From Candidatus Cloacimonadota bacterium (GTDB taxonomy: Bacteria > Cloacimonadota > Cloacimonadia > Cloacimonadales > TCS61): 57,213 nt of DNA. Below the pieces are notes generated by a model. The model made no database searches. It saw only the letters and a program-made list of their open reading frames with translations, and had not been told where the DNA came from. The position numbers and the translations under genes are program-made. Shown here piece after piece: positions 20,217 to 56,629 of this stretch (position 1 is the first letter of the stretch; each line of letters starts with the position of its first letter). The stretch spans positions 1-57,213 of the forward strand of contig JAIPGO010000013.1 in assembly GCA_021736135.1 (NCBI GenBank), written 5' to 3'.

Positions 20217-23200
20217 TTATTTAGAAACTTTTGGAATTCTCTCTTTACGAGCATCGATTCTGTTGTTTTCCAGCCTCTGCGGTACTTCAACGGGGAATAT
20301 GGTAATCAATCCCACGGCATACTGCATGATCAGAGAAGAATCAAAGGCTTCAATATTCTGGTTTCCATCCACATCAGCTCGTATCTGACGCCATAAATCC
20401 CAGGGTAGAGGAGCACCAGGAGGATTAAATCCGACAAAATACTGCAAGACAAGGGCAGCGTCAAATGCCTCTACTGAGCCATTATCATCGACGTCTCCAT
20501 AACTGCCCGTATCATCGTTCACATATAGAGTGACCGGAATTGTTTTTTGATCCCAGCTGTCACCGGAAATAACAATAAAGGCCTGGTGAGTTCCCGCTTC
20601 AATCTCGCTGGTATCAAAATTGATGGTAAAAACTTGAGAGCCACCAGCGATCAAGCTGCCTATAGAAATATCCAGACTGATCCAGCGCAGCGGATAGAGC
20701 AGGCTGATCTCACCACTCACTATATGCGGACCAGCACCATACCCGTCACCGCCAATATCCCAACCCAGGATCAAATCACCAGCAAATTGTGTGCTAAGCT
20801 GGACATTAACATCCCAGTGAGCCTCTTCACCATCATGGATAACACCCCAGCCATTAGCTGTTGTGCCATGCCAGTTAACTGACTGTCCTGCTCCCGTGGT
20901 GCCATCCCAGATCAAATTACCACCAGAACCCCCAATAACATCTCCGGCATCCAGGACTGTTACGCCCGGGGGAAAATTGATCCAGACGTCAGTCAGCCAT
21001 TCATTGTCCGGGGAATTATTTGCGACAGTGAATGACCAGGTAGTTTCTTCTCCGGGAGTAAAGGTATCGGTATTTAGAGTTATATTTGAACCGGTAACAG
21101 CTCTTTCGGGAGTTACGTTTTCTTCAATTCTAACATAGAAATTAACCGGCAGGTTGCCAACATTGGTCAGAGTGAACTGCTGAGTTCCCGATTGTTGTGT
21201 TTCAAGATAATAATAAATACTGTCCGGATCAACACTGAAAGTATTTGGCCAGTAGGCAGTGAATGGCAGCAAGCAGTTCCAGCTATCTTCATCACAACTG
21301 ATGCTTGCTTCAATATAGAAAGTATAAAAATCAGGGACATTTTCCGAGACTTCAATTGATAAGCCGTTTTCCAGAGTAACAGTTTCGCCAGCCGGAATAT
21401 CAGGGCAGGTTGCGTAATTATCGGTAACAGTAATATAAGGATCATTAATGGAAATTTCCACGCTGACATTATGAGCTGATTCTTCACCCATATTTTCCAG
21501 ATCCAGAGTTAAATCAGCCGCTTCCCCAGCTTCGATGTAATTATCATCTCCCGCATAAGGATAATAGCTGCTGACTATCAGGAAAGGAGCATCTACCGGC
21601 ATTGGCGGAGGAGTGAACAGAATTGCCATCTGGTCTTCCAGCACCTTGCAGGAGGAAGGATAGGTATTATTAAAAGTATATTGCAGACCTATCAGGGAAT
21701 CTTCGTTTTCCAGTCCGATCGTACAATACTGTCCGTGATTACTGGGATAGGAGCCGGCATTATTATTGGTAATATCCATGTACTGCATCTTGATTTCACT
21801 GTCGCCTGTTGTAGTAGGATAATACACCGGATCATAGAAAATAACCTGATAAGTTTCGGGTGAGTATGTGTCGCCATTCAAAATACGAGACCATTCCACC
21901 ACCAGATAATGATGCTCTTCATCATAATACCAGAGCACATCACCGGAGCTGATATTCATATCATCCCAGAATACGGCGATCATGGGGCTGGGACCCTGTG
22001 GTCCCGGGATCTGGTAATTCATAAAATTAGCAGTTTCGTGATATCCGGGGGCAATCCAGCCATTTGTGCATACGCACATCTGGTCATATTCTTCACCATA
22101 AAGCTTAAAAGTGAAATCATCCGGGAACGCGATATTAGCATAATTTCCGGTACCTCCACCGTTTCCGGTGGCAGTACCTCCCGCCCAGATTATGGATGTA
22201 CCATCTCCGCCATAATCATGATCGATCTCGATCCAGTCATATACCGGACATTTATCATAATCCGTGTCACCATCATCATAGCACCAGTAACCGTACTCGT
22301 CCGGTCCATATGGATCGCTCACACTCGGAACGCCAATGGGTACGTTCATAGTAACGTAACCGTTATAACCGTCAGCATTGGTAAGATGGATGATGAAGGG
22401 GATGTATGTCCCGGGTATTATGGCCGCACTGGCAGTTATCGTAAACCGGTCGTTGGCATTATTGCCGTCCATTCCGGGATAGATTGTATTAAAACTCCCC
22501 AGGCTGTCTTCAATGGTAATACGGTGATTATTACAAAGTAATACGCCCTCGATATCTGCAGCCAGCAGGTTGCCGTTATTATGCAGAGTGAAGTTCATTT
22601 CCACCGTTTCTCCCGGATCTATGATCCCGTCTCCATAGACAGTATACAAGCTGGCATAAAGGCTGGGACCTTCTATGGGGATCTGCAGGTAAGAAATCCA
22701 TTCATTATCATCATTATCTGTTATGTTCAATATGGCATTAACGTCCACTCCTCCCTGCAGGGCAGCTGCAAACTGAACTTCGTAACCAGCGATGGCAGTA
22801 GCGCCGGAACCTATATTACCGAATCCTGCCTCCGGAGTAATCACGGTAACATAATCACTGCTGACCTGGAGCGATGCATTAATCCCACTGACATCAGAAC
22901 TACCGGTATTTTCCAGAGTAACCAACAATTGCACACTCTCTCCGGGATTGACGATGCCATTCCCATTGCCGGCAGCATCATCATAGGAAACGGATTGAAT
23001 TGTTACAAATTGCGGTACTCTCTCAACAGAAACAATTTCTATACTGGGAATAAAGTTATGTCCCGTTACCGTAAGAGTATAGCCACCTTCAGGAGCGTCA
23101 TTCAGATCAAGCTGAGCCGTGCCGCTGTTATCGGTGAAGGTGGTTGCCGTGAAGGTACCGTCATCTTTATACAGTGTTACCCAGGCATCCGTAATGGTAT

Positions 23201-35754: not shown

Positions 35755-38700
35755 CTACTTCAGCAGCAAACATTTTTTTGTTGCCAGGGGCTTGCCGTCT
35801 ATCTGTAATTGATAGAAATACACGCCAGAGGCAAGGGGATTGCCTGAATTATCAGTGCCATCCCAATCAATGCCGTAATTGCCTGAACCCGTTTCCGCGT
35901 CAATAAATACTCTCACAATTTGACCTTTTATATTGTAAGCTGCCAGTTTCACGTGTCCGGGCTGGCAGATAGAATAATTGATCTTTGTACTGATTCCGCG
36001 TGAGGAATTATAGTAAAACGGATTAGGAAAATTATGGCTAAGGCTGGATGTCTCCGGGATCTGATTATTAGAATTTTTTACTTCCAAAGAAACAGGCAGA
36101 CTGATATCCTGATTATGATCCGTTGTCAGAGTAATGTATGCCAGATATTGCCCCTGCTCCATTCCGTGGGTATCTAACAGCAGAGATAGATTTCTGTTTT
36201 CCAGAGGCTGCAGAGTACCCTGCATTTCTTCACATGATATCCAGTTGACCGGAGGATCGATGATGGAAAAAACACCCGACATTGTCTGTTCTATATTACC
36301 GTCACTGGTAGCAATCCTTATCTTGCAGCAGGTTGACGGCGCATAGTTAACCTCGAAACTATATGCTCCGGTGTTCGGAACATCATCTGCCACGCAGAGC
36401 CAGGTGTTACCATTATTAGTGGATATGGCAATATTGACTGTGGGAGCTGCTCCGGCTAGCTCCCAGGTAATATCTGCCAAACTGCCATATTGCAAAACAG
36501 CTCCTTCATAAGGATTCGTTATCACGAGACCCGTTATTATAAAGGAATCGTCCGAATCATCAAATTCGGCACCATTGGTATTACTTACTCTGATCCTGGC
36601 ATTAGTGACAGGCTCATAAGGAACCACCCATTCCAGTTCTCCAACGTTCGGTACCCCTGAATCAATTAACTCGTAAGTCTGAAAGAAATCCGTGGAATAA
36701 TATACATCTACTTCAGGTATATCACCATTTGTTAGCCAGCGAATAGTATCACAAATTCCATAAGCTATCTCTTCCCCCCCGTTTGGATACTGCATCCAGA
36801 GATATGGACCCTCGGAAGGTAACAGGTAAAATCTTCCACCGATCACATGCGGTCCATCTCCAATACCATTACCACTGATTGCCCATCCAAAGGGAATTGA
36901 ATTGATCACTCCCTCGTCAACCGTTATATAAATATGGAACGTCTGAGGCGTGTTGCCATTATAATAACTGTCGTCATCACCCCAATACATCTGGACACCA
37001 TATCCCGTCGCATTATTATAAGGTAATTCTGCCATATCTGTGGCTCCGTTAACCATAACATACTCTGGAGCAAATATATAGAATACATGGATTGCCTCAT
37101 TATCTAGATTATAATGCACCAGGGTTATTTCGACATCCATTTCCTGCCCGGGTTTATAGGTTTGTGTAACCGGAATAAGAGTATCATCGGAGATATTTCT
37201 TGTATCCTGCGGGAAATAATGAGAAAATGAAACTTCATAATCAAGTGAGGAATTTTCATTCAGGTTCTGCATTCCCAGTTGATATACAAACGTGGTATCT
37301 GTTGGCAGGCTTATTGAGATGGCATTTTGATCTACTTCCATTAAAGGTATCTCCATACCTTCTCTGATACTGAATAATATGGCAGTTCCTGCTTCCACGG
37401 GGTGCACAGTTTCAGGATAAATATCAGCATAACTCATTAGCAGTCCATCTGTCTGCAGGTGATTTTCAATGCCGATAGTGGCATAAAATCCGTTCTGGTC
37501 GGAATTATGTATTTCCAGATACTGGAATTTTATTTTCCCATCCCCGGTAACTGTGGGATAATATTCTTCATCATAAAGAATTACCTGAAAAGTCTGATGG
37601 TTATTAAGAGTGATATCCAGAAGATCATACCATTCAACAATGAAATAATGCCCTTCCTCATTATACTGAGTATAAAGCGTGCCTCCCGACATCTCATCCC
37701 AGAAAGGAGCAATCATGCCAGCAGGTCCGCCACCGGAAGGAATTGTTCGATTCTCGTTAGTCACATATCTCACTTCTCCCATTGCCAGCCAGCCTTCGGA
37801 ACAAACAGTTATCTCATCATAGACCATTCCATAATAACTGAACTGAAAAGGCAGTGATATACGGGTTGAATAACCATCGCAGGTTTCATGACCTATTGGC
37901 ACGGCATCTCCTGCCCCACCTGCCGGTTCGGCAATTTCTATCCAGTCATATTCCGGAATTTCTCCATTTCCCGAATCACTGTTCTCAAAGGCAACATATC
38001 CGTAATTACTAAAAGTCGGACTGCTCTCTGTTATTAAACCGGCTGCAATAGTAGACCGGATTTCCCATACGGAAACACTATTATTGATTATACTGATGCT
38101 GAAGTCCAGCGGTTCTCCCTGTAACAGAGAAGAATGCGGTGTAATCCGGAAAGCACTGCTGCCTATCTCCATTGCCTGAGGATTGATATTGATATAGCTG
38201 CATTCATCCGTGCTTATATCGCACTTACCGTCAGTGCTGGTAATTATGGCAGTAAAATTACCGCTTCCCTTATTTCCGGTATTTAACAGCTCCAGTATCA
38301 GCTCGTTGCTTTCTCCGATCAAAAGACAGTTTTCAGCATTCTGCACTTGATGCCCGGCATATTCTATCTGGGGAGTCTTTATCTGATATGAGATATGATA
38401 GCTGCCCAGTTCTCCTTCATTAAATCTTATTTCCAGTCTGCTTTCCGTTTCCTGCCGCCATTCTTTCGTAAATTCCGGATAGAAGTTCACTACGGCAGTT
38501 TCTCCGGCAGCTAAATCATGAATAGTCTGCTCTGTTACAGGCAATGATACCTGTTCATCATCCGTAACCACGCTTATGGTCAGCGTGCTTAATGCCGTTG
38601 CCGTAGTATTTCTGATATTCAGTACCAGTTCGCTTTCTGCACCTGTTTCCGGTTCTTGAGAAAACGTATAAGATTCCAGGTTTACTTCCTGAATCGTGTC

Positions 38701-40647
38701 AGTACGCTGTATCTCAATTGTTAGAGGCAGATAGCCGTAAGCTGAGATGGTCACATAAAACGATTCTTCATCAGGTGGAATACTGACCGTTGCACTACCG
38801 TCCGACTGCGTTATAGAGGAAGCATATAGCTCGTTAACGGTAGTAACGGCTACTGTAAAACCTTCTGCCGGAATATTCAATACCTGCATTTGCAGTTGAG
38901 AAGCGGATTGCGCTACCTGTCGAGGTATTTCCGCTTCAATATTCTGTGGCGTATCTGTCCATATTTCCAGTCCCGGATCCCCCAGCAGATTATAGGCATA
39001 AAAATAGAGCATATCGCTGTCAAAGGCATCATCTATGCCATCCATCTGATGGCAACCGGGATAGTTGATATAAAGCTCCATCTTGCCCCGCAGCATCATG
39101 GCTGCAGCTCCGAATATCCCTTCCTGAGTTATGCCCTGATAAATGCCCATATCGTTACAATTATTAAATGATGTTTTGGTGTCATGCTCGCTGGGTCCGA
39201 TAAAAGCAATCCCTCCTATCGGATTCTGAGGTGAACCCGCTGTCAGCCAGGTTTCTCCGAAACAGGTTGAATAACTGGCGTCAGCAAAATCACAGCCACC
39301 ACAAACAATGCTGGTTACCATGGGCAGCATAAAACCATTATGTAACTCGGAAAAATTGTTTATATTGAACATACTGCCACTCTCGGCTGCCCAGTTAAAA
39401 GGACTTCCGGCACCACGGTAATTTATAAAGGAATAACCGCCGTTGATCATATTTGCCAGATTTGTAATCCCGCTCTGATAGGGAGAGACAAAAGTATCCA
39501 CTTCAGTATAAGTGAAATCAAGAAGCTTTTCTCTAACTGCCATTACAGTTTCCCTCTGTGAATACTCCGGATCATAATGATCATCAGAAACATAACAGCA
39601 CATCAGGGCTTGACGGAACCAGTTGCTTTCCAGAGGTGGATTCCCCTCGTAACCCATTATTTTGCTGAAAACTGTTTGAAGCTGAACCAGACTCTGCACC
39701 GAGATTCTACCTATCAGCACATCAGAAAAATAATCTTCACCTTCCAGAAGGGAATAGGGATGATCCGTCACATCATAAGGAGTAGCATAACCGACGATAT
39801 ACCATGATGGAAGAACGATATTACCGGAAACATCACCCACCAGCATGACGTATTCGGGGCGGTCATCCCAGTTATCATAAGCATTCTGCAGAAAATCCAG
39901 TATCTCACTATTGGTCGAACCGGTTTCCGTCAGAGTTGCAATCACTACCTGATGACCGAGTTTCCGTTTCCACTGAGCCAGATATTCCACCAGATATACA
40001 ACTTCCGGAAGATCAGGACAGATCATTAAATATGAACCGTTACTCTGATTCCTGCTTCCCGGGTAACCGCTTACTGAGCTTGCAGCAATTTTATCGAAGG
40101 CACTACCACTGTAAGCACCGGAAGTCAGTTTTATATTGATACTCTGCTGCAAACGAAGTTCCAGATCAAGGTTTTTGATGATACGCACTTTATTCTGGGC
40201 TGGATTATACTGCATTCCGGCTACCGAAAGCTGGGAAAAGCGTGACTGACGCATTATCACCGGATCACTAATGTTCACGATATCTTCCGGATACCAGGCA
40301 TTAATCCTTTCATAACCGGCAGTTTCCTGCCTGCTGTTAGTGATTATTGGATGAGAAAGCTCCAGTTCATCCCATTTATAGTGCAGATCTGCTACCTGCC
40401 AGTTTCCTGCTTCCGGCAATGCCAGAAGTTTTGAAAAATGCTCTATTGCCGGCTGTTGCGGAAGTCCTCCCTGACTACATCCGGAAAGCCTGATCTGACT
40501 GAATTGGGAATCTGAGATTGTAATTTCCTTTATATTTTCCAACTGAAAATCACCAGTCAAGTGAACTGATTCTATGTTCATTTCCAGTTCCAGCCCCCAC
40601 AACACACACACACCTGCGACCATCATAAGTAATACTAATTTTTTCAT
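35755..40647 (-). CDS. C25 (gingipain)-like secreted protein 3 with sorting domain
   Basis: A 1630-residue exported protein. Signal peptide (about 1-19), C25 propeptide-like region (to about 200), C25-like domain (about 205-565, VGDVSGN and GDPGLEIW), regulatory-like sandwich, Ig-like modules, the shared FQFSYYGMVYD domain (about 930-1110), two Kre9/Ser-Thr-rich-like Ig units (about 1310-1490, with YPNGGEE), and a sorting domain (NFPNPF, YNIKGQIV, SGVYFYQL, CLLLK). The expected catalytic His is Ala413 in RGAGSP, and Cys449 is kept. The start is the second Met because GGAG lies six bases upstream of it. Its closest relative is the adjacent C25-like protein 4, a tandem duplication. Downstream genes (DUF1292, permease, kinase) are close enough to be co-transcribed. 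Confidence 0.85.
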   Translation of the reverse strand: MKKLVLLMMVAGVCVLWGLELEMNIESVHLTGDFQLENIKEITISDSQFSQIRLSGCSQGGLPQQPAIEHFSKLLALPEAGNWQVADLHYKWDELELSHPIITNSRQETAGYERINAWYPEDIVNISDPVIMRQSRFSQLSVAGMQYNPAQNKVRIIKNLDLELRLQQSINIKLTSGAYSGSAFDKIAASSVSGYPGSRNQSNGSYLMICPDLPEVVYLVEYLAQWKRKLGHQVVIATLTETGSTNSEILDFLQNAYDNWDDRPEYVMLVGDVSGNIVLPSWYIVGYATPYDVTDHPYSLLEGEDYFSDVLIGRISVQSLVQLQTVFSKIMGYEGNPPLESNWFRQALMCCYVSDDHYDPEYSQRETVMAVREKLLDFTYTEVDTFVSPYQSGITNLANMINGGYSFINYRGAGSPFNWAAESGSMFNINNFSELHNGFMLPMVTSIVCGGCDFADASYSTCFGETWLTAGSPQNPIGGIAFIGPSEHDTKTSFNNCNDMGIYQGITQEGIFGAAAMMLRGKMELYINYPGCHQMDGIDDAFDSDMLYFYAYNLLGDPGLEIWTDTPQNIEAEIPRQVAQSASQLQMQVLNIPAEGFTVAVTTVNELYASSITQSDGSATVSIPPDEESFYVTISAYGYLPLTIEIQRTDTIQEVNLESYTFSQEPETGAESELVLNIRNTTATALSTLTISVVTDDEQVSLPVTEQTIHDLAAGETAVVNFYPEFTKEWRQETESRLEIRFNEGELGSYHISYQIKTPQIEYAGHQVQNAENCLLIGESNELILELLNTGNKGSGNFTAIITSTDGKCDISTDECSYININPQAMEIGSSAFRITPHSSLLQGEPLDFSISIINNSVSVWEIRSTIAAGLITESSPTFSNYGYVAFENSDSGNGEIPEYDWIEIAEPAGGAGDAVPIGHETCDGYSTRISLPFQFSYYGMVYDEITVCSEGWLAMGEVRYVTNENRTIPSGGGPAGMIAPFWDEMSGGTLYTQYNEEGHYFIVEWYDLLDITLNNHQTFQVILYDEEYYPTVTGDGKIKFQYLEIHNSDQNGFYATIGIENHLQTDGLLMSYADIYPETVHPVEAGTAILFSIREGMEIPLMEVDQNAISISLPTDTTFVYQLGMQNLNENSSLDYEVSFSHYFPQDTRNISDDTLIPVTQTYKPGQEMDVEITLVHYNLDNEAIHVFYIFAPEYVMVNGATDMAELPYNNATGYGVQMYWGDDDSYYNGNTPQTFHIYITVDEGVINSIPFGWAISGNGIGDGPHVIGGRFYLLPSEGPYLWMQYPNGGEEIAYGICDTIRWLTNGDIPEVDVYYSTDFFQTYELIDSGVPNVGELEWVVPYEPVTNARIRVSNTNGAEFDDSDDSFIITGLVITNPYEGAVLQYGSLADITWELAGAAPTVNIAISTNNGNTWLCVADDVPNTGAYSFEVNYAPSTCCKIRIATSDGNIEQTMSGVFSIIDPPVNWISCEEMQGTLQPLENRNLSLLLDTHGMEQGQYLAYITLTTDHNQDISLPVSLEVKNSNNQIPETSSLSHNFPNPFYYNSSRGISTKINYSICQPGHVKLAAYNIKGQIVRVFIDAETGSGNYGIDWDGTDNSGNPLASGVYFYQLQIDGKPLATKKCLLLK

Positions 40648-40780
40648 TATCTTCTCCATCCTGCAAAGTTTTGTAAAATCATCAAATACTTTATATGTGT
40701 CAATTAATTAATCTAAGGTCTCGCATCCCCCCGAAAATTATTAAAAATATCAATTCCGATTGAGTTTCTTTTCCCTGAAA

Positions 40781-41060: not shown

Positions 41061-44000
41061 TTATTTCAGCAGCAGGCATTTTTTTGCTGCCAGGATTTTG
41101 CCGTCTATTTGTAACTGATAGAAATACACGCCGGCAGCAAGAGGATTGCCTGAATTATCAGTGCCATTCCAGTTAAAATTATAACTGCCTGCATCCGTTT
41201 CTGCGTCAATAAATACTCTTACAATTTGACCTTTTATATTGTAAGCTGCCAGTTTCACGTGACCCGGCTGATTGACGGAGAAATCGATCATTGTTCCGGC
41301 ATCTCGTGCAGAACCACTGGTAAACGGATTTGGATAATTACTGCTCAGTACCGCCGGTTCTGTTATCTGATTATCCCCGGCATCCAGATTCAATATTTCC
41401 AGGAATACAGGGATGGCAATGATCTGGTTATATTCCGTTGTTATGCTAAGGTATGCCTGATAATGGCCATGCCCCATTCCCGAAGTATCAATTTCCAGAG
41501 TACAGGTACGGCTTTCCAGGGGCTGTAGAATGCCCTGAGTTTCTGTTATATCCATCCAGTTCACCGGGGCATCTATAATGGAGAATTCGCCTTGCATCAC
41601 TTGTTCGATAATTCCGTCACTGGTACTTATTCTGATCTTGCAGGCATTTGAAGGTGGAAAATAAACCTGGAAACTGTAAGAACCGGTATTGGGAACATTA
41701 TCTGCCAGGCTCAGCCAGGTATATCCACTATTAACAGAAATATCGATATCAACTGCAGGAGCGGCACCGGCAAAATCCCAGAGAATATCAGCATAATTGC
41801 CATATTGCAGGGTTACCCCGCTGTGAGGATAGGTGATCACAAGACCTTTAATAACGAATGTGGCATCAGAATCATCATATTCGTTACCGTTAGCATCACG
41901 CACGCGGATCTTTCCTGTGGAAGTAAGTTCGGTAGGAATTGTCCATTCCAGTTCTCCGCTGTTCGGCACACCCGCACCTATCTGCTGGTAATTCACGAAG
42001 AAATTAGTGGTATAATATACATCAACTTCCGTAATATCACCGTAAGATGTCCAGCGGATAGTATCTGTGATACCATAAGCAAATTCCTCTCCCCCATTGG
42101 GATATTCCAGCCAGATGTAAGTATCATTGGAAGGCATCAGGGTTATCGTTCCGCTGACGCTGTGAGGTTCCGCACCAGTGCCGTCACCGGTGACCGTCCA
42201 GTTTAAGGGGACGGGACTGCTGATCCCTTCATCTATAATAAAATAGACGTGGAAGGTCTGAGGCGTGTTATTATTATAATTATTACCATTTCCATAACCC
42301 CAGCTTACCTGGGCACCATATCCGGTTTCCCCGTTATAATGCAGCTCCGCAATATCGGTTGCGCTGGTTACCTGCACATAATCCGGAAAATCCAGCAACA
42401 CACCATGAACCGCTTCATTATCAATATTTTCATGCACCATGAAGGCATAGAGATTCATTTCATGTCCAGTGTAATATGTCTGGTTGACGGGATTGATAGA
42501 ATTGCCCGAAATATCCCTGCCTGTATTGCTTTCCCGCTGCGGAAAATGTGATATGGCAATTTCATAACCCAGAGAAGATACTTCACTGAGATTCTCAATT
42601 TCAAACTGGCAGGTTACGGTAGTATCCGGGGGCAGACTTATCACAATAGCATTTTCATTCACTCCGAGTAGCGGTACTTCTGCTCCTTCTCTGATCGTGA
42701 ATAATATTGCCGTTCCGGCTTCAACCGTATGCATTGTTGCCGGATAACGGTCTGCATAGCTCAAGAGAAGACCTTCCGTCTGTAAGTGATTTTCTATCCC
42801 TACGGTTGCAAAATTTTCATTCTGATTGGAATTATGTATTTCCTGATACTGGAATTTAATCTCACCTTCTCCGGTATTTGTAGGATAATACTGCTCGTCA
42901 TAGAGAATAACTTGAAAGGTCTGGTTCTCAGTGTGATTTACATCCAGAAATTCATACCATTCAATAATAAAACAATGTTCATCCTCATCAAATAAAGTGT
43001 AAATTTCTCCATCAGACATTTCATCCCAGAAGGGGGCAATCATAGCAGCAGGACCAACGCCGGAGGGAATGATGCGATTACGGAAAAATACATATTCCTC
43101 GTCACCCATTGCCAGCCAGCCATTGGTGGAAACCGTTATCTCATTATAGAACTGCCCGTAATAACAGAACTGGAAAGGCAAGGGAATGCAGGTAGAGAAA
43201 CCATCTGAGGTTTCATGGGCTGCCGGGACTTCGCTGCCGTTGCCTCCTGCTGCAGGAGCAATTTCTATCCATTCATATTCCGGAACGTCATTATCTCCGG
43301 AATCTGTATTTTCAAGGGCAAAATAACCATAACTGCTGAAAGTGGGACTGCTCTCATTAATAATCCCGGCGGTAAGCGTAAACCAGGTTTCCCAGACTGG
43401 TTGGCCGCTTTTTATTACTGTAATACTGAAATCCATAGGTTCACCGGCAAGGAGCGAAGCCTGGGGAGTCAGTTGCATAGCACTGCTGCCCATCTCTATT
43501 TCCTGGGGACTGATATTTCCGAAATTGCAGTTTCCTGTGCTGATCTGGCATTTATTATCGATACTTGCCAGAATTGCCATAAATTCCCCACTATCCTGTT
43601 CCCCGGCATTATACATTTCCAGGATCATATCATTGCTTTCTCCGATCAGCAGACAGTTTTCGGGATTCTGTACGAACTGACCGGCATATTCTATCCGGGG
43701 AGTATTGATCTGATATGCGATCAGATATCTGCCCAGATCGCTGTCATTGAATCTAATTTCCAGTTCGCTATCCGGCACTTGACGCCATTCTTCTGAAAAC
43801 TCGAGCTCGAATTCCAGCACTGCGTTTTCCCCGACAGCCAGATCCGTGATATCCTGCTGGGTAACGGGGAGCATCACCTGCTCGTCATTAGAGATAATAC
43901 TTACAGTGAGGGAATTGAGCTGTGCGGAAGTAGTATTACAGATATCCAGAACCAGGGAAGAATTTTCTCCGGTTTCCGGTTCGGAAGTGAAATGGTATGA

Positions 44001-45986
44001 TTGCAGACTCACTTCCTGAATAGAATCGCTGCGTTGAATTTCCTGTGTCAGGGGTAGGTAGCCATAAGCCGAAAGAGTTACAAAAAAACTGTCCTCCCCT
44101 ATCGGGATATTAACGGCTGCACTGCCATCCGCTTGAGTAAATGCTGTGGAGATCAGTTCGTCAGTAGTTGTAACCGCAACCGTAAAACCTTCTGCCGGAG
44201 TGTTCAAAACCTGCAATTGCAGCTGAGAGGCAGATTGCGAAACCTGCAGGGGTATATCAACTTCAATGTTCTGGGGCGTATCAGTCCATATTTCCAGTCC
44301 CGGATCTCCCAGCAGATTATAAACGTAAAAATAAAACATATCGCTATCCCAGGCATCATTATAGCCATCCATTTCGTGGCAGTCGGGATAGTTGTTATAA
44401 AGCTCCATCTTGCCGCGCAGCATCATGGCTGCCGAACCAAAAATCCCTTCCTGAGTTATTCCCTGATAGATTCCCATATCGTTGCAGTTATTAAAAGGCG
44501 TTTTAGTATCGTGCTCGCTGGGACCTATGAAGGCAATTGCACCCGCAGGAGATTGAGGGGTTCCAGCCGTAAGCCAGGTTTCTCCAAAACTTGAAGCATA
44601 ATTATTATCCGCAAAATCACCACCGCCACAGACAATACTGGTGACCATCGGCAGCATAAAGCCGTTATTTAACAATGGAAAATCCCAGATGGAGAACATG
44701 TAGTTGCTGGCACCTGCCCAGTAACCGGGACTACCCGCTCCACGGTAATTGATAAAAGTATAACCATTATTGATCATATTTGCCAGATTGGCAGGTCCAC
44801 TCTGGAATGGTGAAATGAAAGTATCTACTACGGTATAAGTGAAATCAAGAAGCTTTTCCCTTACCGCCATAACGGTTTCCCGCTGGGAATACATCTGGTA
44901 AAAACCACCATAATTGACCACATAACTGCACATTATGGCATGACGGAACCAATCACTTTCCTGGGGTGGATTCCCTTCATAACCTGTTATTTTGCTGATC
45001 ACAGTCTGTAATTGTGTCAGACTTTGTATGGATAATCTGCCGACCAGCACGTCAGGAAAATAATCCTCTCCCTCCAGAAGTGAGTATGGATGATCTGTCA
45101 CATCAAAGGCTGTTAAATAACCGGCAATATACCAGGCAGGAACCACGATATTACCTGATACATCACCCACTAAAATTACATACTCGGGGCGGTTCGTCCA
45201 GGTATCATAAGCATTCTGCAGGTAATTAAAGATCTGATCATTTGTCGAACCTGTCTCCGTCAGGGTTGCAATTACCGTTTCATGACCAAGTTTGCGTTTC
45301 CAGTTTGCCAGATACTCCATAAGTCCCACAACTTCCGGAATATCAGGGCAGATGATCAGATAGGAACCGTTACTCTGCTCGCGACTGGCAGTATAACCGG
45401 AAATATTATCCTCTGCCAGCTTACTAAAAGCGCTGCCGGCAGCAGCTCCGGAAAGCTGTTTGTTATTAACACTCCGGTTCTGTTCCAGTTGCAGTTGCAT
45501 ATCTAAATCTTTAATGATTCGTATTTTATTAAGACCAGGATTATATTGCATTCCTGCCACAGAAAGCTGCGAAAAACGTAACTGGCGCATTATAACAGGC
45601 TTACTGATAGTGACGATATTTTCCGGAAGCCAGGTATTTGCGTTGCTCTCACTATTATTATCCTGCAGACTGTTATTCACCAGAGGATATTCCAGTTGCA
45701 GCTCATCCCAGGCGTAATTAATATCTGTTACCTGCCAGTTCCCGGTTTCCGGTAATGCCAGCAGTTCAGTATAATGACCAATATCCGACTTCTGCGGCAG
45801 ACCACCCTGACGACTGTCTGTGAGCATTACCTGACAATATTTTGAGCTGGTTATAGTTAGTTCAGTTATATCTTTTAACTGGAAATCTCCCGTCAGATGA
45901 ATTGACTCTCCGGCTATTTCCAGATTCAGTCCCCATGCCAAGTTACCAAGCAGGAACAGAACCAGAGAAAGCAATATTTTTTTCAT
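41061..45986 (-). CDS. C25 (gingipain)-like secreted protein 4 with sorting domain
   Basis: A 1641-residue exported protein and close paralogue of C25-like protein 3 over its full length. Signal peptide (1-19), propeptide-like region, C25-like domain (about 205-565), regulatory-like sandwich, Ig-like modules, the shared FQFCYYGQFYN domain, two Kre9-like units (YPNGGEEF), and a sorting domain (NYPNPF, YNIKGQIV, SGVYFYQL, CLLLK). The catalytic His position is again Ala (Ala417 in RGAGSP). Cys453 is kept while the second Cys seen in protein 3 is Gly here, which points to Cys453 as the family cysteine. A TTGACA box (complement of 46037-46042) lies upstream with a poor -10. The gene ends at its own terminator, so it is probably transcribed alone. 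Confidence 0.85.
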   Translation of the reverse strand: MKKILLSLVLFLLGNLAWGLNLEIAGESIHLTGDFQLKDITELTITSSKYCQVMLTDSRQGGLPQKSDIGHYTELLALPETGNWQVTDINYAWDELQLEYPLVNNSLQDNNSESNANTWLPENIVTISKPVIMRQLRFSQLSVAGMQYNPGLNKIRIIKDLDMQLQLEQNRSVNNKQLSGAAAGSAFSKLAEDNISGYTASREQSNGSYLIICPDIPEVVGLMEYLANWKRKLGHETVIATLTETGSTNDQIFNYLQNAYDTWTNRPEYVILVGDVSGNIVVPAWYIAGYLTAFDVTDHPYSLLEGEDYFPDVLVGRLSIQSLTQLQTVISKITGYEGNPPQESDWFRHAIMCSYVVNYGGFYQMYSQRETVMAVREKLLDFTYTVVDTFISPFQSGPANLANMINNGYTFINYRGAGSPGYWAGASNYMFSIWDFPLLNNGFMLPMVTSIVCGGGDFADNNYASSFGETWLTAGTPQSPAGAIAFIGPSEHDTKTPFNNCNDMGIYQGITQEGIFGSAAMMLRGKMELYNNYPDCHEMDGYNDAWDSDMFYFYVYNLLGDPGLEIWTDTPQNIEVDIPLQVSQSASQLQLQVLNTPAEGFTVAVTTTDELISTAFTQADGSAAVNIPIGEDSFFVTLSAYGYLPLTQEIQRSDSIQEVSLQSYHFTSEPETGENSSLVLDICNTTSAQLNSLTVSIISNDEQVMLPVTQQDITDLAVGENAVLEFELEFSEEWRQVPDSELEIRFNDSDLGRYLIAYQINTPRIEYAGQFVQNPENCLLIGESNDMILEMYNAGEQDSGEFMAILASIDNKCQISTGNCNFGNISPQEIEMGSSAMQLTPQASLLAGEPMDFSITVIKSGQPVWETWFTLTAGIINESSPTFSSYGYFALENTDSGDNDVPEYEWIEIAPAAGGNGSEVPAAHETSDGFSTCIPLPFQFCYYGQFYNEITVSTNGWLAMGDEEYVFFRNRIIPSGVGPAAMIAPFWDEMSDGEIYTLFDEDEHCFIIEWYEFLDVNHTENQTFQVILYDEQYYPTNTGEGEIKFQYQEIHNSNQNENFATVGIENHLQTEGLLLSYADRYPATMHTVEAGTAILFTIREGAEVPLLGVNENAIVISLPPDTTVTCQFEIENLSEVSSLGYEIAISHFPQRESNTGRDISGNSINPVNQTYYTGHEMNLYAFMVHENIDNEAVHGVLLDFPDYVQVTSATDIAELHYNGETGYGAQVSWGYGNGNNYNNNTPQTFHVYFIIDEGISSPVPLNWTVTGDGTGAEPHSVSGTITLMPSNDTYIWLEYPNGGEEFAYGITDTIRWTSYGDITEVDVYYTTNFFVNYQQIGAGVPNSGELEWTIPTELTSTGKIRVRDANGNEYDDSDATFVIKGLVITYPHSGVTLQYGNYADILWDFAGAAPAVDIDISVNSGYTWLSLADNVPNTGSYSFQVYFPPSNACKIRISTSDGIIEQVMQGEFSIIDAPVNWMDITETQGILQPLESRTCTLEIDTSGMGHGHYQAYLSITTEYNQIIAIPVFLEILNLDAGDNQITEPAVLSSNYPNPFTSGSARDAGTMIDFSVNQPGHVKLAAYNIKGQIVRVFIDAETDAGSYNFNWNGTDNSGNPLAAGVYFYQLQIDGKILAAKKCLLLK

Positions 45987-49566: not shown

Positions 49567-50121
49567 TTAAAATACTGGCTTCCCCCCTCCGTTTTTTCCT
49601 GATACAAAGACGTAACCAACTGACTTTAATACTTATAAGACATACCAAAAACTTGATCCTAAGGGCCACCATTGCGGAGGTCTGAAGACCATTCGCAAGG
49701 TGTTAGATGAGAGAATGTATAAACTCGCTAAGTTACCTTGCGAATGGTCTTCAAACCTCCGCAATGGTAACGACATAATGCAAAAATAATAACCTTATGA
49801 GAGTTTGGAATCAGTTAATTCCGGGGGGATGCGAAAATATTAAAATACTGGCTTCCCCCCCCCGTTTTTTCCTGATACAAAGACGTAACCAACTGACCTT
49901 AATACTTATAAGACATACCAAAAACTTGATCCTAAGGTCCACCATTGCGGAGGTTTTCAACCATTCGCAAGGTGTTAGATGAGAGAATGTATAAACTCGC
50001 TAAGTTACCTTGCGAATGGTCTTCAGACCTCCGCAATGGTGACGACACAATGCAAAAATAATAACCTTATGAGAGTTTGGAATCAGTTAATTCCGGGGGG
50101 ATGCGAAAATATTAAAATACT
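49567..50121. repeat. Tandem duplication of a 272-bp noncoding block
   Basis: Two near-identical copies lie head to tail at 49567-49839 and 49840-50111, and a third copy begins (TTAAAATACT, 50112-50121). Each contains a C-tract (GGCTTCCCCCC), a 100-bp palindrome (49668-49767 and 49941-50040; ends ACCATTGCGG and CCGCAATGGT, inner arms with CATTCGCAAGGT and ACCTTGCGAATGG), and a GGGGGGATGCG motif. Short frames inside are artefacts. The block lies directly upstream of the VWA operon promoter. Confidence 0.9.
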
Positions 50122-50405: not shown

Positions 50406-52373
50406 ATGAAAAGAGTATTATTGGGGACGCTATTAGTTATTTTGATAATGGGCTGGATAACAGTTTCAGCAGGTGAAGAACGAGAAAAAGCAGAAGAGTC
50501 ATCAGTAGCTGATAGTCTGCAGACAACAGAAAAGATTGATGACTGGCAATTCAATTTGAATACGACAGAGGTGTCTGATAAAAAAACATTTCCCCTTCCA
50601 AATGCTGCCAAACAGTCGTCTGAAGTTAAAGCAAGTGCCGGTTCACAAGCCCAGCCAATTCAGGATATTGTGGGAATACAGGCAGGAGCAGCAAATGTAG
50701 ATGGAGAGATCCATATTCGTGGTAGTCGTGCAAATGAGGTAAATTACACTGTTGATGGTGTGACTGTATCTGCTCCCTCATTTGGCAGCACCCCAAGGAC
50801 TGGTGGATTTACTGCTGAGTATGGAAATGCCCAGTCAGGTGTAGTAAGTTTTGATAATGAATTAGGCTTTTCCGTGGGAGGAGCCAAAGATGTGGATAAT
50901 TTCCGGTTGAATATTGAGAATGGTTATCTGCCTTTACTGAGTTCAATAACTTATGAGGGATTGTTTTACGACTATTATTTTAATACGCAGGGAGTCAGCT
51001 CAGAGACTGAGGATATGTTTTCACCCTCTTATAATATAGCGCAGGAGCGCAATCCGCTTACGGATGAAGAAGAAACCTGGCTTTCGGTGGGTTTGAATTC
51101 AAATATAAAAGAAAGTGACTTTGGCAGGAAAAAACTGAATTTAGTGGTCGTATTGGATATTTCAGGATCAATGCGCTCGCCGTTTAACCAGTATTATTAT
51201 GACGGCGGCAGAAGAATAGACGACGGTGACCAGCGTTCGAAACTGGAAATAGCCACAGAGACGATCTGCAGTATGCTGGATCACCTGGAAGCTGAAGACC
51301 GTTTCGGGATGGTGCTTTTTGAGAATAGAGCTTTTCTGGCAAAACCGCTGAATAGAGTCGGTGATACTGATATGGATAAGATCAAGCAGCACATTATGGA
51401 TCTGCGACCCCAGGGCGGGACGAATATGTATGCCGGGATGCAGTCAGGAACGCAGCTTTATGATAAATATCTGAATGCCGATAAGAGCGAATATGAGAAC
51501 CGGATCATCTTTTTAACTGATGCCATGCCCAATAGGGAACTGACGGATAAAAATTCGCTCTGGGGCGTATTGGATGAAAATGCGGACAAGGGCTTATATG
51601 CCACAATCATCGGTGTGGGTGTGGATTTTCAAACGCGGCTGGTGGAGCATATCAGTAAAGTGGAAGGTGCTAATTATTACAGTATCCATTCGGCAAAGGA
51701 ATTTAAAAAACGTCTGGATGAGGAATTTGAATATATGGTCACACCCCTGGTATTTAATCTGAACCTGGTAGTAGATGTGGAAGGTTATGAAATCATGAGA
51801 GTCTGCGGAACGCCATACAGTGAAGAAAGTAAGGGTGAGTTATTGAAAGTGGGCACACTATTTCCTTCACCTTCAGTAGAAGGCGAAGTGAAGGGCGGAA
51901 TCATTCTGGTAGAATTGAAAAGAACTGCCAAAGACGGGCAGATATATTTACTGGCAGGTTATGATGACCGCAATGGCAAACATTTCCAGAACCGGCTGCA
52001 GGTGGATTTTAAAAAAGTGATGGCAAGTTCCCGGTTAAGTCCTGGCTTGCAGAAAGGTGTACTTTTAGTCCATTATGCTGATCTATTAAAAGAATGGGTA
52101 GAATACATGCGTAATCCGGAAAGCGGAGAGAAAAAACTGCAGGGAACCGATGACTGGCAATATCGGATACCACCACAGAGAAGAGGATACCAGGGATTAA
52201 ATGAATGGGAACAAAGATCAATGCCTCTGGCGGTAAATGCGCATTACCAGACCGAATTCATCAAATTTCGGGATATTCTGCTGAGTGAGCGCGAAAGGCT
52301 GGAGGATAAAAATCTGCAGCAGGAAATTGATCTGCTGAACCTGTTGATCAATTATAGAGTTATGGATGAATAA
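50406..52373 (+). CDS. Exported VWA protein with TonB-plug-like segment
   Basis: A 655-residue exported protein. Signal peptide (about 1-22); a plug-like segment (about 84-150) with EIHIRGSRANEVNYTVDGV and AEYGNAQSGVV, both hallmarks of TonB-dependent receptor plugs; then the N-terminal domain of YfbK-type VWA proteins (about 153-192); a VWA domain (about 245-430) with an intact MIDAS motif DISGS (251-255); and a C-terminal DUF3520-like region. No receptor beta-barrel follows the plug. The plug appears shortened between VDGV and AEYG. GGGAGG precedes the ATG. The next gene is a close paralogue that lacks the plug but has a TonB C-terminal domain. The role is unknown; an envelope complex that couples VWA ligand binding to a TonB-type partner is a hypothesis. 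Confidence 0.85.
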   Translation: MKRVLLGTLLVILIMGWITVSAGEEREKAEESSVADSLQTTEKIDDWQFNLNTTEVSDKKTFPLPNAAKQSSEVKASAGSQAQPIQDIVGIQAGAANVDGEIHIRGSRANEVNYTVDGVTVSAPSFGSTPRTGGFTAEYGNAQSGVVSFDNELGFSVGGAKDVDNFRLNIENGYLPLLSSITYEGLFYDYYFNTQGVSSETEDMFSPSYNIAQERNPLTDEEETWLSVGLNSNIKESDFGRKKLNLVVVLDISGSMRSPFNQYYYDGGRRIDDGDQRSKLEIATETICSMLDHLEAEDRFGMVLFENRAFLAKPLNRVGDTDMDKIKQHIMDLRPQGGTNMYAGMQSGTQLYDKYLNADKSEYENRIIFLTDAMPNRELTDKNSLWGVLDENADKGLYATIIGVGVDFQTRLVEHISKVEGANYYSIHSAKEFKKRLDEEFEYMVTPLVFNLNLVVDVEGYEIMRVCGTPYSEESKGELLKVGTLFPSPSVEGEVKGGIILVELKRTAKDGQIYLLAGYDDRNGKHFQNRLQVDFKKVMASSRLSPGLQKGVLLVHYADLLKEWVEYMRNPESGEKKLQGTDDWQYRIPPQRRGYQGLNEWEQRSMPLAVNAHYQTEFIKFRDILLSERERLEDKNLQQEIDLLNLLINYRVMDE

Positions 52374-52383
52374 AGGAGGAAAA

Positions 52384-54525
52384 ATGAAAAAGATATTCCT
52401 GGGGATTTTATTTATTCTGCTGGCAATTAGCAGTTTAGCAGTGTTTGCATCGAAAGAAGAAAATGTGGAAGCTCCGGCAGCAGCGGATTCTCTGCAGACA
52501 GCAGAAAAAGTTGACGACTGGCAGCTTGACTTCAATGTTTATGAGGATACTGATAGCGGTGGGAAGAAAAATGTTGTACAATCAGCGCCAGCCACTTCGG
52601 GAGGGACTACTTACTCAGAAATACAGATATTAGAATCCAAGTCATTATCTGCTACACGCCTTGATTCTTACAGTGATATGGGATTTTCGGTGGGAGGAGC
52701 GAAGGATATAGATAATTTCAGGTTAAATATTGAGGAAGGTTATTTGCCCTTGCCGAGTGCAATAACTTATGAAGGTTTGTTTTACGATTACTATTTCGAT
52801 ACGCGGGGAGAGACAGCCGAGACGAAAGACCTTTTTTCACCGAGTTACAATTTTGCGAAGCAACGCAATCCGCTTACGGATGAAGAAGAAATCTGGCTTT
52901 CGGTAGGCTTGAACTCCAATCTGAAAGAAAGCGATTTCAGCAGGAAAAAACTGAATTTAGTGGTTGTTCTGGATATATCAGGGTCAATGAATTCACCTTT
53001 TAACGAATATTATTATGACGGCAACCGGAAAGTGCAAGATGAAGACAGACGTTCAAAACTGACCATAGCCACGGAGACGATCTGCAGTATGCTGGATCAC
53101 CTGAAAGCTGAAGACCGCTTTGGCATGGTGCTTTTTGAGAACAGAGCTTTTCTGGCGAAACCATTGAATCCGGTTGGCGAAACGGATATGGATAGAATTA
53201 AAAAGCATATTCTGGATCTGCGCACGCAGGGTGGAACTAATATGTATGCCGGCATGCAGACAGGGACGCAGCTTTTTGATAAATATCTGAATGTTGATAA
53301 GAGCGAATATGAGAACCGCATCATTTTTTTGACGGATGCCATGCCCAACCGGGAACTGACGGATAAAAATTCGCTCTGGGGCGTTCTGGATGAAAATGCG
53401 GACAAGGGCTTATATGCCACGCTGATCGGTGTGGGCGTGGATTTCCAGTCACAACTGGTGGAACATATCAGCAAGGTGGAAGGTGCCAATTATTACAGTA
53501 TCCATTCGGCAAAGGAATTTAAAAAACGTCTCGATGAGGAATTTGATTATATGGTCACGCCGCTGGTATTTAACCTGAACCTGGTGATCGATGCGCAGGG
53601 ATATGAAATCAAACGGGTCTGCGGCACGCCGTATAGTGCAGAAAGCAAGGGTGAGATCATGAAGATCGGCACGCTTTTCCCGTCACCGAGCGAAGAAGGT
53701 GAAGTGAAAGGCGGGATCATTCTGGTGCAGTTGCAGCAGACGTCCCGGGATGGTAAAATCTCACTGCTGGCAGGTTATGATGACCGTAATGGAAAACATT
53801 TCCAGAACCGGCTGCAGGTGGATTTCAAAAAAATGATGTTGAGCTCCTGGTTAAGCCCGGGCCTGCAGAAAGGCGTACTTTTAGTGCATTATGTTGATCT
53901 ATTAAAAGAGTGGGTGGAATATGTGCGCAACCCGGAAAGCCGGGGAAATAAGCCGGCAGTGGAGGATGACTGGCAATATAATAAACCGCCCCAGCGCAGA
54001 GAACGCCCGGGACTGAATGAATGGGAACAGACCTCAATGCGGCTGACTGTGAATGATCATTACCGCGAGGAATTCCGCAAATTCCGTAAAATAATGCAGG
54101 ACGAGATGCAGCGCTTTGGCGATGAAAAGCTGCAGCAGGAAGTTGACCTACTTGATCTATTGATAAATTTTGATAAATCCAGATTTAATTATAATGAACC
54201 CTATGATGAGATTCGCCACGGTACAACACCCAAAGGTTTTATCTATTATGACGATCCACCACGTAAGCTCAATGAACCCGTCTTGAATTATCCAAAATTT
54301 GCCAAAGATGCAGGTATTCAGGGTACAGTGGCATTAGAACTGGAAGTGCTGACAAACGGAAGGGTCGGTGCCATCGATGTAACAAAGTCTGTTTTGCCTG
54401 GACCAGGTGGACTGGATGAAGCAGCTATCGAATATGCCCGTCAACTGGAATTTGAGCCTGCTAAAACTAATGGGAAACCTGTTGCCGTGTGGGTAACTTA
54501 TCCGGTGAATTTTTCAATGAATTAA
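52384..54525 (+). CDS. Exported VWA protein with C-terminal TonB domain
   Basis: A 713-residue exported protein. Signal peptide (about 1-23), YfbK-type N-terminal domain (about 100-140), VWA domain (about 192-375) with DISGS at 197-201, a DUF3520-like region, and a TonB_C domain (about 626-713: NYPKFAKDAGIQGTV, then ARQLEFEPAKTNGKPV). TonB_C normally sits on an inner-membrane TonB and contacts the TonB box and plug of outer-membrane receptors. Here it has no Pro-rich linker or ExbB/ExbD-binding helix beyond the signal region. The start is ATG 52384, after AAAGGAGG; the earlier ATG at 52366 overlaps the upstream gene. It shares long near-identical DNA with the upstream VWA gene, so the duplication is fairly recent. 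Confidence 0.87.
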   Translation: MKKIFLGILFILLAISSLAVFASKEENVEAPAAADSLQTAEKVDDWQLDFNVYEDTDSGGKKNVVQSAPATSGGTTYSEIQILESKSLSATRLDSYSDMGFSVGGAKDIDNFRLNIEEGYLPLPSAITYEGLFYDYYFDTRGETAETKDLFSPSYNFAKQRNPLTDEEEIWLSVGLNSNLKESDFSRKKLNLVVVLDISGSMNSPFNEYYYDGNRKVQDEDRRSKLTIATETICSMLDHLKAEDRFGMVLFENRAFLAKPLNPVGETDMDRIKKHILDLRTQGGTNMYAGMQTGTQLFDKYLNVDKSEYENRIIFLTDAMPNRELTDKNSLWGVLDENADKGLYATLIGVGVDFQSQLVEHISKVEGANYYSIHSAKEFKKRLDEEFDYMVTPLVFNLNLVIDAQGYEIKRVCGTPYSAESKGEIMKIGTLFPSPSEEGEVKGGIILVQLQQTSRDGKISLLAGYDDRNGKHFQNRLQVDFKKMMLSSWLSPGLQKGVLLVHYVDLLKEWVEYVRNPESRGNKPAVEDDWQYNKPPQRRERPGLNEWEQTSMRLTVNDHYREEFRKFRKIMQDEMQRFGDEKLQQEVDLLDLLINFDKSRFNYNEPYDEIRHGTTPKGFIYYDDPPRKLNEPVLNYPKFAKDAGIQGTVALELEVLTNGRVGAIDVTKSVLPGPGGLDEAAIEYARQLEFEPAKTNGKPVAVWVTYPVNFSMN

Positions 54526-54669
54526 AGGCCGGGGGAAGATAATAGAAAAACCCTAAAAAATAATCCCTTCTGGATATATAGATATGGTGTTTCTTGATTT
54601 TCAGAAGATTGATATTGCATGGGTGTTCAATCACCAGTCTACGCAAAATGAGTTCTTTTGATAGCAGTA

Positions 54670-54795
54670 AAAAATATCATGTAGATAAAGATGAATATGA
54701 CAACCGGAACATCTTTTTTACAGATACCATGCCCAATCGTAAACTGACAGATAGAAACTCGTTTTAGTGATGAAAACTGCAGCAGTAAATTGTCA
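54670..54795 (+). pseudogene. Relic of a third VWA gene
   Basis: A short frame reads VDKDEYDNRNIFFTDTMPNR then KLTDRNSF and a stop at 54764-54766. This matches the VWA interior of the two upstream genes (VDKSEYENRIIFLTDAMPNR, ELTDKNSLWGV). After the stop, the shifted frame continues as DENC, matching DENA of the paralogues, so there is also a frameshift. No start or other domain remains in this 483-base spacer. Confidence 0.75.
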
Positions 54796-55008: not shown

Positions 55009-55158
55009 ATGAAGAAAGAGAGTGGAAAAGAAATAAAGTTAGATATATCCGCAAAGGATCTAAAAGCAGCATTGGCAAAAACAACCAAGGAGGTTGAAGT
55101 ATTAAAAAAGTCTCTTGATATATCGGTTAATATTCAAAAGAGAATTTTTAATTGTTGA
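55009..55158 (+). CDS. Small charged helical protein ahead of a cysteine peptidase
   Basis: A 49-residue protein, rich in Lys and Glu, with a probable amphipathic helix or short coiled coil (LKAALAKTTKEVEVLKKSL). A strong ribosome site (GGAGGG) lies five bases before the ATG. Its stop codon is one base ahead of the ATG of the downstream peptidase, so translation is probably coupled. No family is recognised. It may be a pro-segment, an inhibitor or a partner of the peptidase (inference). Confidence 0.65.
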   Translation: MKKESGKEIKLDISAKDLKAALAKTTKEVEVLKKSLDISVNIQKRIFNC

Positions 55159-55159
55159 A

Positions 55160-56629
55160 ATGTCCGATATTAGACTTCAATTTTTGGATTACTCACTAGA
55201 GAATCTGGTTTCTATTATATCCGAGTTTTCTGGTATATCTGATTTACAATTATCATCTAAGCGTCATATAGCTTACTTTAAATCGTATTTAAGCCATCTT
55301 AATACAAAAACAATAATTGTCGAAACTCCATATATTGATCACGATTTTCTTTCTGATTACTCTTATTACTATGTGAAATGCTTCAAGGAGTATAGTAAGA
55401 AATGCATGAGACTGCATTTATTTAAGAAAATGATCTTGGAAGATTATTTTTTTTCGGTTTATAATGACGAGGCTATCAAATCAGATATAAATGAAGCATA
55501 TTTAGGCTTTATCGTGATTAAACCGTTACCAAATACGATTTTCGGCAGAACTTGTTTAGTTACATACGAATCTTCTGAAAAACGACATTATACTTGCAAT
55601 GTAAGATATAGTGTTAACCTGGCTGGAGTAAAACTGACAGTAGAATCTGTTGCTTTTCAAGAGCAAGACTCAATTGTTGCAGCTTGTGCAACCAGTGCAT
55701 TATGGTCAGTTTTCCATGTTACCTGTAGATCTAATAATCACTATTTACCATCCCCAGTAGAGTTAACAAAATCTGCATTGGAAAATTATCCATTAAAAAA
55801 CAGATATTTTCCCAATTATGGATTAAATTTAGAGCAAATGGCTCAAGCAATACGAAAAGTGAACTTAGATCCATTGTGTATTGAGCCACAAAATACTGCT
55901 ATTTTAAAGAAAGCGATATATTCTTATCTGCAATGTGGCATACCGATCCTTATGGGAATTGAAATCAGAAATATAATTGATGGGGGATATATCGGATTGC
56001 ATGCTGTAAGTATTTTGGGATATTCAATAGGTCAAACAGAATCAGAATTCAAATCTGACGCTATTGAAGAGCTTTATTGTCATGATGATCAAGTGGGTTG
56101 CTTTGTCAGGATGAGTTTTAAAGGGAATGATTTAGCAATTACCTGTGGATGGACAATAGGCGGGATTGAACAAGAAGCAAAAGTAACTTGCTTATTAATA
56201 GCTCAGTATAATAAATTGAGAATTGAATATTCAACTATTTACGAATATATATATTGGTTAAATAATCTTTTTTCAAAATTTAAATGGGGAAAATTAAGTT
56301 GGGATACATTTATTATTTTATCAAATGATTTAAAAAGCAAGTTATTGGCAGAAAACATATTACCTTTTCAGAAAAAGAAAGAAATTATGACTACTGAACT
56401 TCCAAAATACGTATGGCAGTCTACTCTTTCAATAAATAACAAAAAAAGAATCAGGATAATTTTTGATGCGACAGGAATTTCACAGGATTCACTGATTTTA
56501 ACAGATATAGTATATGATGAAGAATTTTATAATATACTCAGAATTTTATTCAAAATTTTAAAAGATCAATTTCCAAATTTTAGTGTGATATTGCAATATT
56601 TATCTGAACATTTTACAGATGAACGTTAA
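55160..56629 (+). CDS. Papain-like (C39-like) cysteine peptidase, putative
   Basis: A 489-residue protein with no signal peptide. The middle region looks like a papain-fold C39-like peptidase: QEQDSIVAACATSALW places the nucleophile at Cys176, GLHAVSILGY gives His281, and YCHDDQVGCF gives an Asp at 309 or 310. The first 170 residues carry no known domain (one segment reads GFIVIKPLPNTIFGRT), and the last 130 are also unassigned. The ATG at 55160 is preferred because it directly follows the stop of the 49-residue gene; an in-frame TTG at 55115 would overlap it. The gene is more AT-rich than the operons upstream, which suggests acquisition. Function and substrate are unknown; a defence or toxin role is possible but not shown. 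Confidence 0.75.
   Translation: MSDIRLQFLDYSLENLVSIISEFSGISDLQLSSKRHIAYFKSYLSHLNTKTIIVETPYIDHDFLSDYSYYYVKCFKEYSKKCMRLHLFKKMILEDYFFSVYNDEAIKSDINEAYLGFIVIKPLPNTIFGRTCLVTYESSEKRHYTCNVRYSVNLAGVKLTVESVAFQEQDSIVAACATSALWSVFHVTCRSNNHYLPSPVELTKSALENYPLKNRYFPNYGLNLEQMAQAIRKVNLDPLCIEPQNTAILKKAIYSYLQCGIPILMGIEIRNIIDGGYIGLHAVSILGYSIGQTESEFKSDAIEELYCHDDQVGCFVRMSFKGNDLAITCGWTIGGIEQEAKVTCLLIAQYNKLRIEYSTIYEYIYWLNNLFSKFKWGKLSWDTFIILSNDLKSKLLAENILPFQKKKEIMTTELPKYVWQSTLSINNKKRIRIIFDATGISQDSLILTDIVYDEEFYNILRILFKILKDQFPNFSVILQYLSEHFTDER

Follow-up and report, generated by a model that had tools for sequence, protein, structure and literature searches.

Two neighbouring genes in a Candidatus Cloacimonadota genome (assembly GCA_021736135.1) encode exported VWA proteins, each of which has taken up a piece of the same TonB operon. 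The genes, P0001 and P0002, lie on contig JAIPGO010000013.1, whose positions 1 to 57,213 were analysed here (57,213 nucleotides, the window). P0001 carries an internally deleted segment from the plug of a TonB-dependent receptor (TBDR), and P0002 ends in a TonB C-terminal domain (TonB_C) that is intact and under TonB-like purifying selection. We consider the arrangement as a whole best explained, with somewhat more confidence than doubt, as a duplicated pair of DDW-VWA proteins in which P0002 would act as a soluble Ton-box-binding adaptor and the plug segment of P0001 would be a decaying capture. The features of the pair are listed below.

50406..52373, plus strand: P0001, exported VWA protein with a truncated plug segment, 655 aa; Shine-Dalgarno sequence GGGAGG upstream
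50406..50474, plus strand: signal peptide of the Sec type at the start of P0001 (MKRVLLG...VSA), judged cleavable by rule of thumb; helix at residues 2-22 in the AlphaFold model
50526..50555, plus strand: KIDDWQF motif of P0001 (residues 41-50), present in most relatives
50652..50849, plus strand: P0001 residues 83-148, a stretch of plug origin that has lost its middle and is without a Ton box; from profile searches and alignment
51138..51704, plus strand: VWA domain of P0001 with intact metal-ion-dependent adhesion site (MIDAS); from Pfam search and family alignment
52384..54525, plus strand: P0002, exported VWA protein with C-terminal TonB_C; probable start at ATG 52384
52954..53520, plus strand: VWA domain of P0002; from Pfam search
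54220..54522, plus strand: TonB-derived segment of P0002 (residues 619-719, GTTPKGF...NFSMN) with TonB_C at 640-717; from Pfam, alignment and selection tests
54669..54792, plus strand: remnant of a third tandem VWA copy in two short pieces

Both captured pieces derive from one TonB operon

A first-pass annotation had described two adjacent, clearly duplicated exported VWA proteins, and this description stands. VWA is recognised by Pfam in both (E 1e-10 in P0001 and 8e-10 in P0002), both N-termini read by eye as Sec-type signal peptides, and the cores are ~80% identical with a dN/dS of 0.14 over 500 codons, which argues that both genes are real, constrained and living. The open reading frames (ORFs) were listed as 50406-52373 and 52366-54525, overlapping and co-directional on the plus strand and encoding 655 and 719 aa. 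Directly behind the stop codon of P0001 (taa, 52371-52373) stand the Shine-Dalgarno sequence AAAGGAGG and then ATG 52384, the sequence after the stop and ahead of this ATG reading AAAGGAGGAAAA. The true start of P0002 is probably 52384, the listed start at 52366 lying six codons too early. Given this order of stop, ribosome-binding site and start, the two genes are likely to be co-transcribed and translationally coupled.

The source of both pieces is an operon on another contig of the same genome (C147), which encodes a TBDR of 992 aa, ExbB, two successive ExbD proteins, a TonB of 214 aa and then a 1041-aa protein; the TBDR and TonB were named by Pfam, ExbB and ExbD by eye from the sequence. 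The C-terminus of P0002 is 67-69% identical to the TonB of this operon, residues 63-156 of P0001 are 58% identical to the plug of its receptor, and the alignments contain near-identical blocks. The donor receptor has a beta-barrel (Pfam) and a Ton-box segment that reads VDIEGVTITEAKNQ (the EGVTITEAKNQ region), and the donor TonB has its own N-terminal hydrophobic helix. It is here, rather than beside the VWA pair, that the ExbB and ExbD genes are located. An operon of the same gene order in a matching neighbourhood is found in two further genomes of the phylum (G089 and G087), and matches to the receptor and to TonB occur in most of the 125 phylum genomes.

P0002 was correctly annotated as bearing a TonB_C without an obvious anchor for ExbB/ExbD. 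Pfam places the domain at residues 640-717 (E 5.3e-17), and by eye the N-terminus is a Sec signal peptide with an AxA-like site, no motor-binding transmembrane anchor being seen there. The domain keeps 30 of the 32 residues that are invariant in 14 TonBs. In comparison with the TonB of its own genome, synonymous sites are saturated (proportion of synonymous differences, pS, 0.78), yet the protein has changed little (nonsynonymous proportion, pN, 0.11). A tree of phylum TonBs groups the P0002 domain with the TonBs of G000, G087 and G089, on a branch of 0.124 that is shorter than that of the genome's own TonB (0.179), and the domain is 76-78% identical to the operon TonBs of its own clade. Furthermore, a branch codon model assigns P0002 an omega of 0.019, no different from that of the other branches, and rejects neutrality (2dlnL 5.8). 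A soluble TonB domain has been kept intact by selection outside transport.

The plug origin of the P0001 segment is certain. Pfam Plug reaches residues 82-129 below threshold (E 0.012; 16.6 bits, where the gathering cut-off is 23.9; profile positions 26-75 of 107), and a plug model built from 31 phylum receptors matches residues 85-148 with an E of 4e-22 (model positions 3-79 of 83). The real linker scores 75 bits with this model, compared with a maximum of 8 bits among 2000 linker shuffles. The annotated plug-like segment without a receptor barrel is thus genuine, no beta-barrel match being found in P0001 by Pfam. The profile searches proposed at that stage gave a divided result: vWF_A and TonB_C were found, Plug fell below the cut-off and is real by the phylum model, and DUF3520/YfbK_C was absent.

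The segment is also badly damaged. A 13-residue gap interrupts it within the receptor stretch GSALTIDQDAIADMSVM, and of 39 invariant plug residues 23 are kept, 5 deleted and 11 substituted. The strand-helix preceding MTGG is missing and the conserved DPVDGG loop has been replaced. There is no match to the Ton box in P0001, a profile with Ton-box columns aligning only from column 28, and the CarboxypepD_reg domain is absent from the protein. In the AlphaFold model the segment falls within an unfolded, low-confidence stretch (residues 56-150), which is weak evidence given that no aligned relatives cover this stretch. The linker of the nearest orthologue (G089, 68% core identity) holds two plug scraps, GNPQSGIV and YTIDGMSV, in swapped order; these outscore all 2000 shuffles, and one shares 17 of 18 bases with P0001. 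Plug material therefore occurs in the linker of two lineages, and has not been kept as a domain. The linker of P0002 shows no plug trace (1227 of 2000 shuffles score as high).

The VWA core, the array and related fusions in the phylum

The pair belongs to a DDW-VWA family, as aligned here, by virtue of its DDW motif, a core that starts at GFSVGGAKD and a VWA domain with a MIDAS. The MIDAS residues D251/S253/S255, T339 and D372 are invariant across 58 aligned sequences, and the DDWQF motif (residues 41-50) is modelled by AlphaFold with a pLDDT of 95. A scan of species genomes returned 79 relatives, most of them 40-60% identical, in archaea (Methanothrix, haloarchaea, DPANN), Chloroflexi, Clostridia, candidate phyla and Cloacimonadota, and this scattered distribution suggests horizontal spread. 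Family members open with a signal, a lipobox or a membrane anchor; next come a DDW(x)(F/Y) motif and a variable linker, ahead of a conserved core from GFSVGGAKD; the linker between motif and core is of low complexity and unconserved among relatives. In the 58-member alignment, P0001 is 39-62% identical to relatives outside its own genome. The 56 relatives in that alignment have neither plug nor TonB_C, each module thus occurring in 1 of 58 sequences, the window's own protein. Foldseek returned generic VWA architectures only (Sec23/24-like, ITI heavy chain, ArnB). Membership of the YfbK family was considered and rejected, both YfbK Pfam domains (PF12450 and PF12034) being absent from the pair and without a match anywhere in the window's genome. 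At 17 loci in Chloroflexi, Clostridia and some candidate phyla (e.g. L076:8565-9245), a DDW-VWA gene adjoins a gene for an ECF-type sigma factor, and in many cases a second conserved gene, for a membrane protein, is close by.

At high identity, the VWA core is found in only three of the 125 phylum genomes (G000, G089 and G052). G089 has plug scraps without TonB_C and G052 has neither, so the plug and TonB_C fusions never occur together elsewhere in this set, albeit one of only three genomes. Such an absence from relatives is what the first-pass annotation had named as refuting its proposal. Within the genome itself, a frameshifted VWA-TonB_C fragment ends contig C135 (L121, C135:50198-50746). 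Taken with the third-copy scraps downstream of the pair, this fragment indicates more than one duplication of the fusion gene. Close to the contig end the fragment is cut off by a sequence in which TTTTACCGG words recur and which resembles, by impression only, an insertion-sequence end. An ancestral protein with both plug and TonB_C that later split finds no support, since the P0002 linker is plug-free and P0001 ends at the core. Synonymous divergence of the captured pieces from their donors (0.76 and 0.78) exceeds that between the cores (0.52), a relation that would also fit an ancestral split.

Each half of the arrangement recurs in the phylum. Canonical YfbK proteins are present in 30 of the 125 genomes, and among 28 YfbK linkers tested, plug pieces are present in 10 and Ton-box-region pieces in 5, about half of the linkers in all. 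No more than 2 of 500 shuffles score as high, and plug profile matches reach 1e-12. In the scanned YfbK examples the fragments sit behind a CarboxypepD_reg domain.

L172, L175, L176, L180, L183, L185-L188, L196: VWA proteins of the YfbK type, with plug fragments in the linker that precedes the VWA part

Additionally, an alpha-2-macroglobulin-like (A2M) protein of 2058 aa (L204:1485-7658, minus strand) has a plug-half insert at residues 1201-1282, between its bait-region and A2M domains. The Ton box was rejected as a common ingredient of these fusions in the phylum, since it is matched in only those five YfbK linkers and the macroglobulin insert begins after the Ton-box region. Two Bacteroidota YfbK proteins (L202 and L203) have a CarboxypepD_reg domain followed by the Ton-box-like LEEVVVTGYS or LEECVVVGYGT, and have no plug or receptor parts. 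On the transducer side, TonB_C is appended in the phylum to C10 peptidases, PEGA and TPR proteins, a VIT protein, an M56 peptidase, a Ser/Thr kinase and a caspase-like protein (L160-L170, L171), and one protein has four TonB_C copies. What is special here is that neighbouring genes have captured both halves of a receptor-transducer couple from one operon. The wider pattern points to a phylum-wide habit of equipping unrelated exported proteins with TonB_C or with fragments of the receptor front end; we found no account of it in the literature searched.

A candidate adaptor and its rivals

We propose that tandem duplication within a horizontally widespread, exported DDW-VWA family was followed by the pickup of pieces of the host's TonB operon. 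TonB_C grips the Ton box, which precedes the plug. The P0001 fragment, having no Ton box, is therefore not a plausible ligand of TonB_C. A TonB_C without an anchor, when carried by an exported VWA protein, would be expected to dock on receptors from the inner side of the outer membrane. P0002 would accordingly be a soluble periplasmic VWA protein whose captured domain would most likely attach by strand addition, the mode by which TonB_C binds (PMC12204202), to Ton boxes on the TonB-dependent receptors of the cell. Having no link to an ExbB/ExbD motor, it would hold its metal-binding VWA domain against the inner face of the outer membrane, where it might compete with TonB. P0001 would be its translationally coupled partner, with a plug segment that now probably serves as linker, being neither a plug nor a partner of TonB_C. 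Ton-box binding is an inference backed by the selection on the domain, the adaptor role and the loss of plug function are likewise inferred, and several points weigh against this reading. The AlphaFold models are uninformative on both plug and TonB_C, no aligned relatives covering either part, and the P0002 domain may bind peptidoglycan or nothing rather than Ton boxes. The remaining end blocks of the plug have an omega of 0.03 with neutrality marginally rejected (2dlnL 3.9), in blocks preselected as alignable, and the recurrence of plug halves before YfbK VWA domains could imply a function for the P0001 segment.

The first-pass annotation had proposed that the plug segment of P0001 and the TonB_C of P0002 touch, joining the two VWA proteins. 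In its favour are the shared origin of the two pieces in a cognate operon, the adjacency and translational coupling of the genes, and conservation in the plug blocks that remain. We nevertheless regard such a contact as very improbable: the Ton box, which is the actual ligand, is missing, the core strand-helix and the DPVDGG loop have been lost, the segment lies in a hypervariable linker, the plug decays in the closest orthologue, and the fusions do not co-occur in relatives. A looser association, in which the VWA cores pair, P0002 fastens the heterodimer to receptors by its TonB_C and the plug segment is a short motif aiding docking at receptor barrels, would suit coupled genes with cores 80% identical and the repeated appearance, across the phylum, of plug halves ahead of VWA domains. 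Dimerisation of the VWA domains has no support, however, and aligned relatives are without both modules, which leaves this reading rather unlikely. The decayed third copy, the frameshifted fragment on C135, the damaged plug and the confinement of the fusions to one genome would all be expected if both captures were passive recombination debris of a tandem array in decay and neither piece had a selected role. We nonetheless judge this unlikely, since the TonB_C is under TonB-like constraint with 30 of 32 invariant residues kept, and the cores have a dN/dS of 0.14.

Two further explanations draw on the recurrence of TonB_C in the phylum. The P0002 domain might bind another ligand, for example peptidoglycan or another exported protein, and merely localise the VWA protein in the periplasm, as TonB_C also stands on unrelated exported proteins (C10 peptidase, PEGA, TPR) for which receptor docking is not obvious. 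Those domains are ~50% or less identical to that of P0002, compared with 76-78% for the operon TonBs of its own clade, and this alternative seems to us distinctly unlikely. More broadly, pieces of the TonB system might form a general docking code in Cloacimonadota and partly in Bacteroidota, whereby anchorless TonB_C or receptor front-end tags on VWA, protease, kinase and macroglobulin proteins attach these to the Ton machinery or allow it to pull them. P0001 would then carry a receptor-side tag and P0002 a transducer-side tag, the pair being a two-part version with one tag per twin; we give this idea a small chance.

Several known systems resemble parts of the pair. The last 100 residues of P0002 are the C-terminal domain of a TonB energy transducer (TonB_C, PF03544) with TonB-like selection, yet P0002 differs from such transducers in having no motor-binding helix and no adjoining ExbB/ExbD genes, and in having a VWA protein with a cleavable-type signal peptide ahead of the domain. 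Residues 83-148 of P0001 come from the plug of the genome's own TonB-dependent receptor, whereas receptors of this kind (CarboxypepD_reg plus plug) possess the beta-barrel, Ton box, CarboxypepD_reg domain and plug middle that P0001 has not. Like the YfbK family (PF12450-VWA-PF12034), the pair consists of exported VWA proteins, and phylum YfbK linkers also contain plug fragments; however, P0001 and P0002 lack both YfbK Pfam domains and form part of a separate DDW-VWA family, at ~25-29% identity. YfbK-like vWA domains have been proposed to replace the C-terminal domain of TolA/TonB in motor-driven transducers (Mol Biol Evol 2025, PMC12204202). Those proteins have a motor-binding helix and adjacent tolQR-like genes; the pair has neither and so falls outside that class, P0002 instead combining VWA with TonB_C. 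The MxcH-type receptor (NCBIfam NF038079), whose profile has a TonB_C-like domain at positions 1-85, offers a precedent for an unusual combination of receptor and transducer. It is one full receptor polypeptide, whereas here the parts lie on two VWA paralogues.

Other features of the window

The pair is flanked by an FGE-sulfatase/fn3 protein and an unassigned ORF. The gap upstream (49567-50121) contains a 273-nt tandem duplication, 97-98% identical, with near-perfect inverted repeats of 34-35 nt. Elsewhere in the window, four gingipain-like C25 peptidases of ~1600 aa are encoded on the minus strand (2289-7049, 20217-24998, 35755-40659 and 41061-45986), three with tails of the type IX secretion type or FlgD_ig and one with a dockerin. 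A helicase with the end of a TOTE-type archaeo-eukaryotic primase domain lies at 174-1925, and a 504-aa ORF at 55115-56629, without a Pfam match, contains by eye a papain/C39-like stretch.

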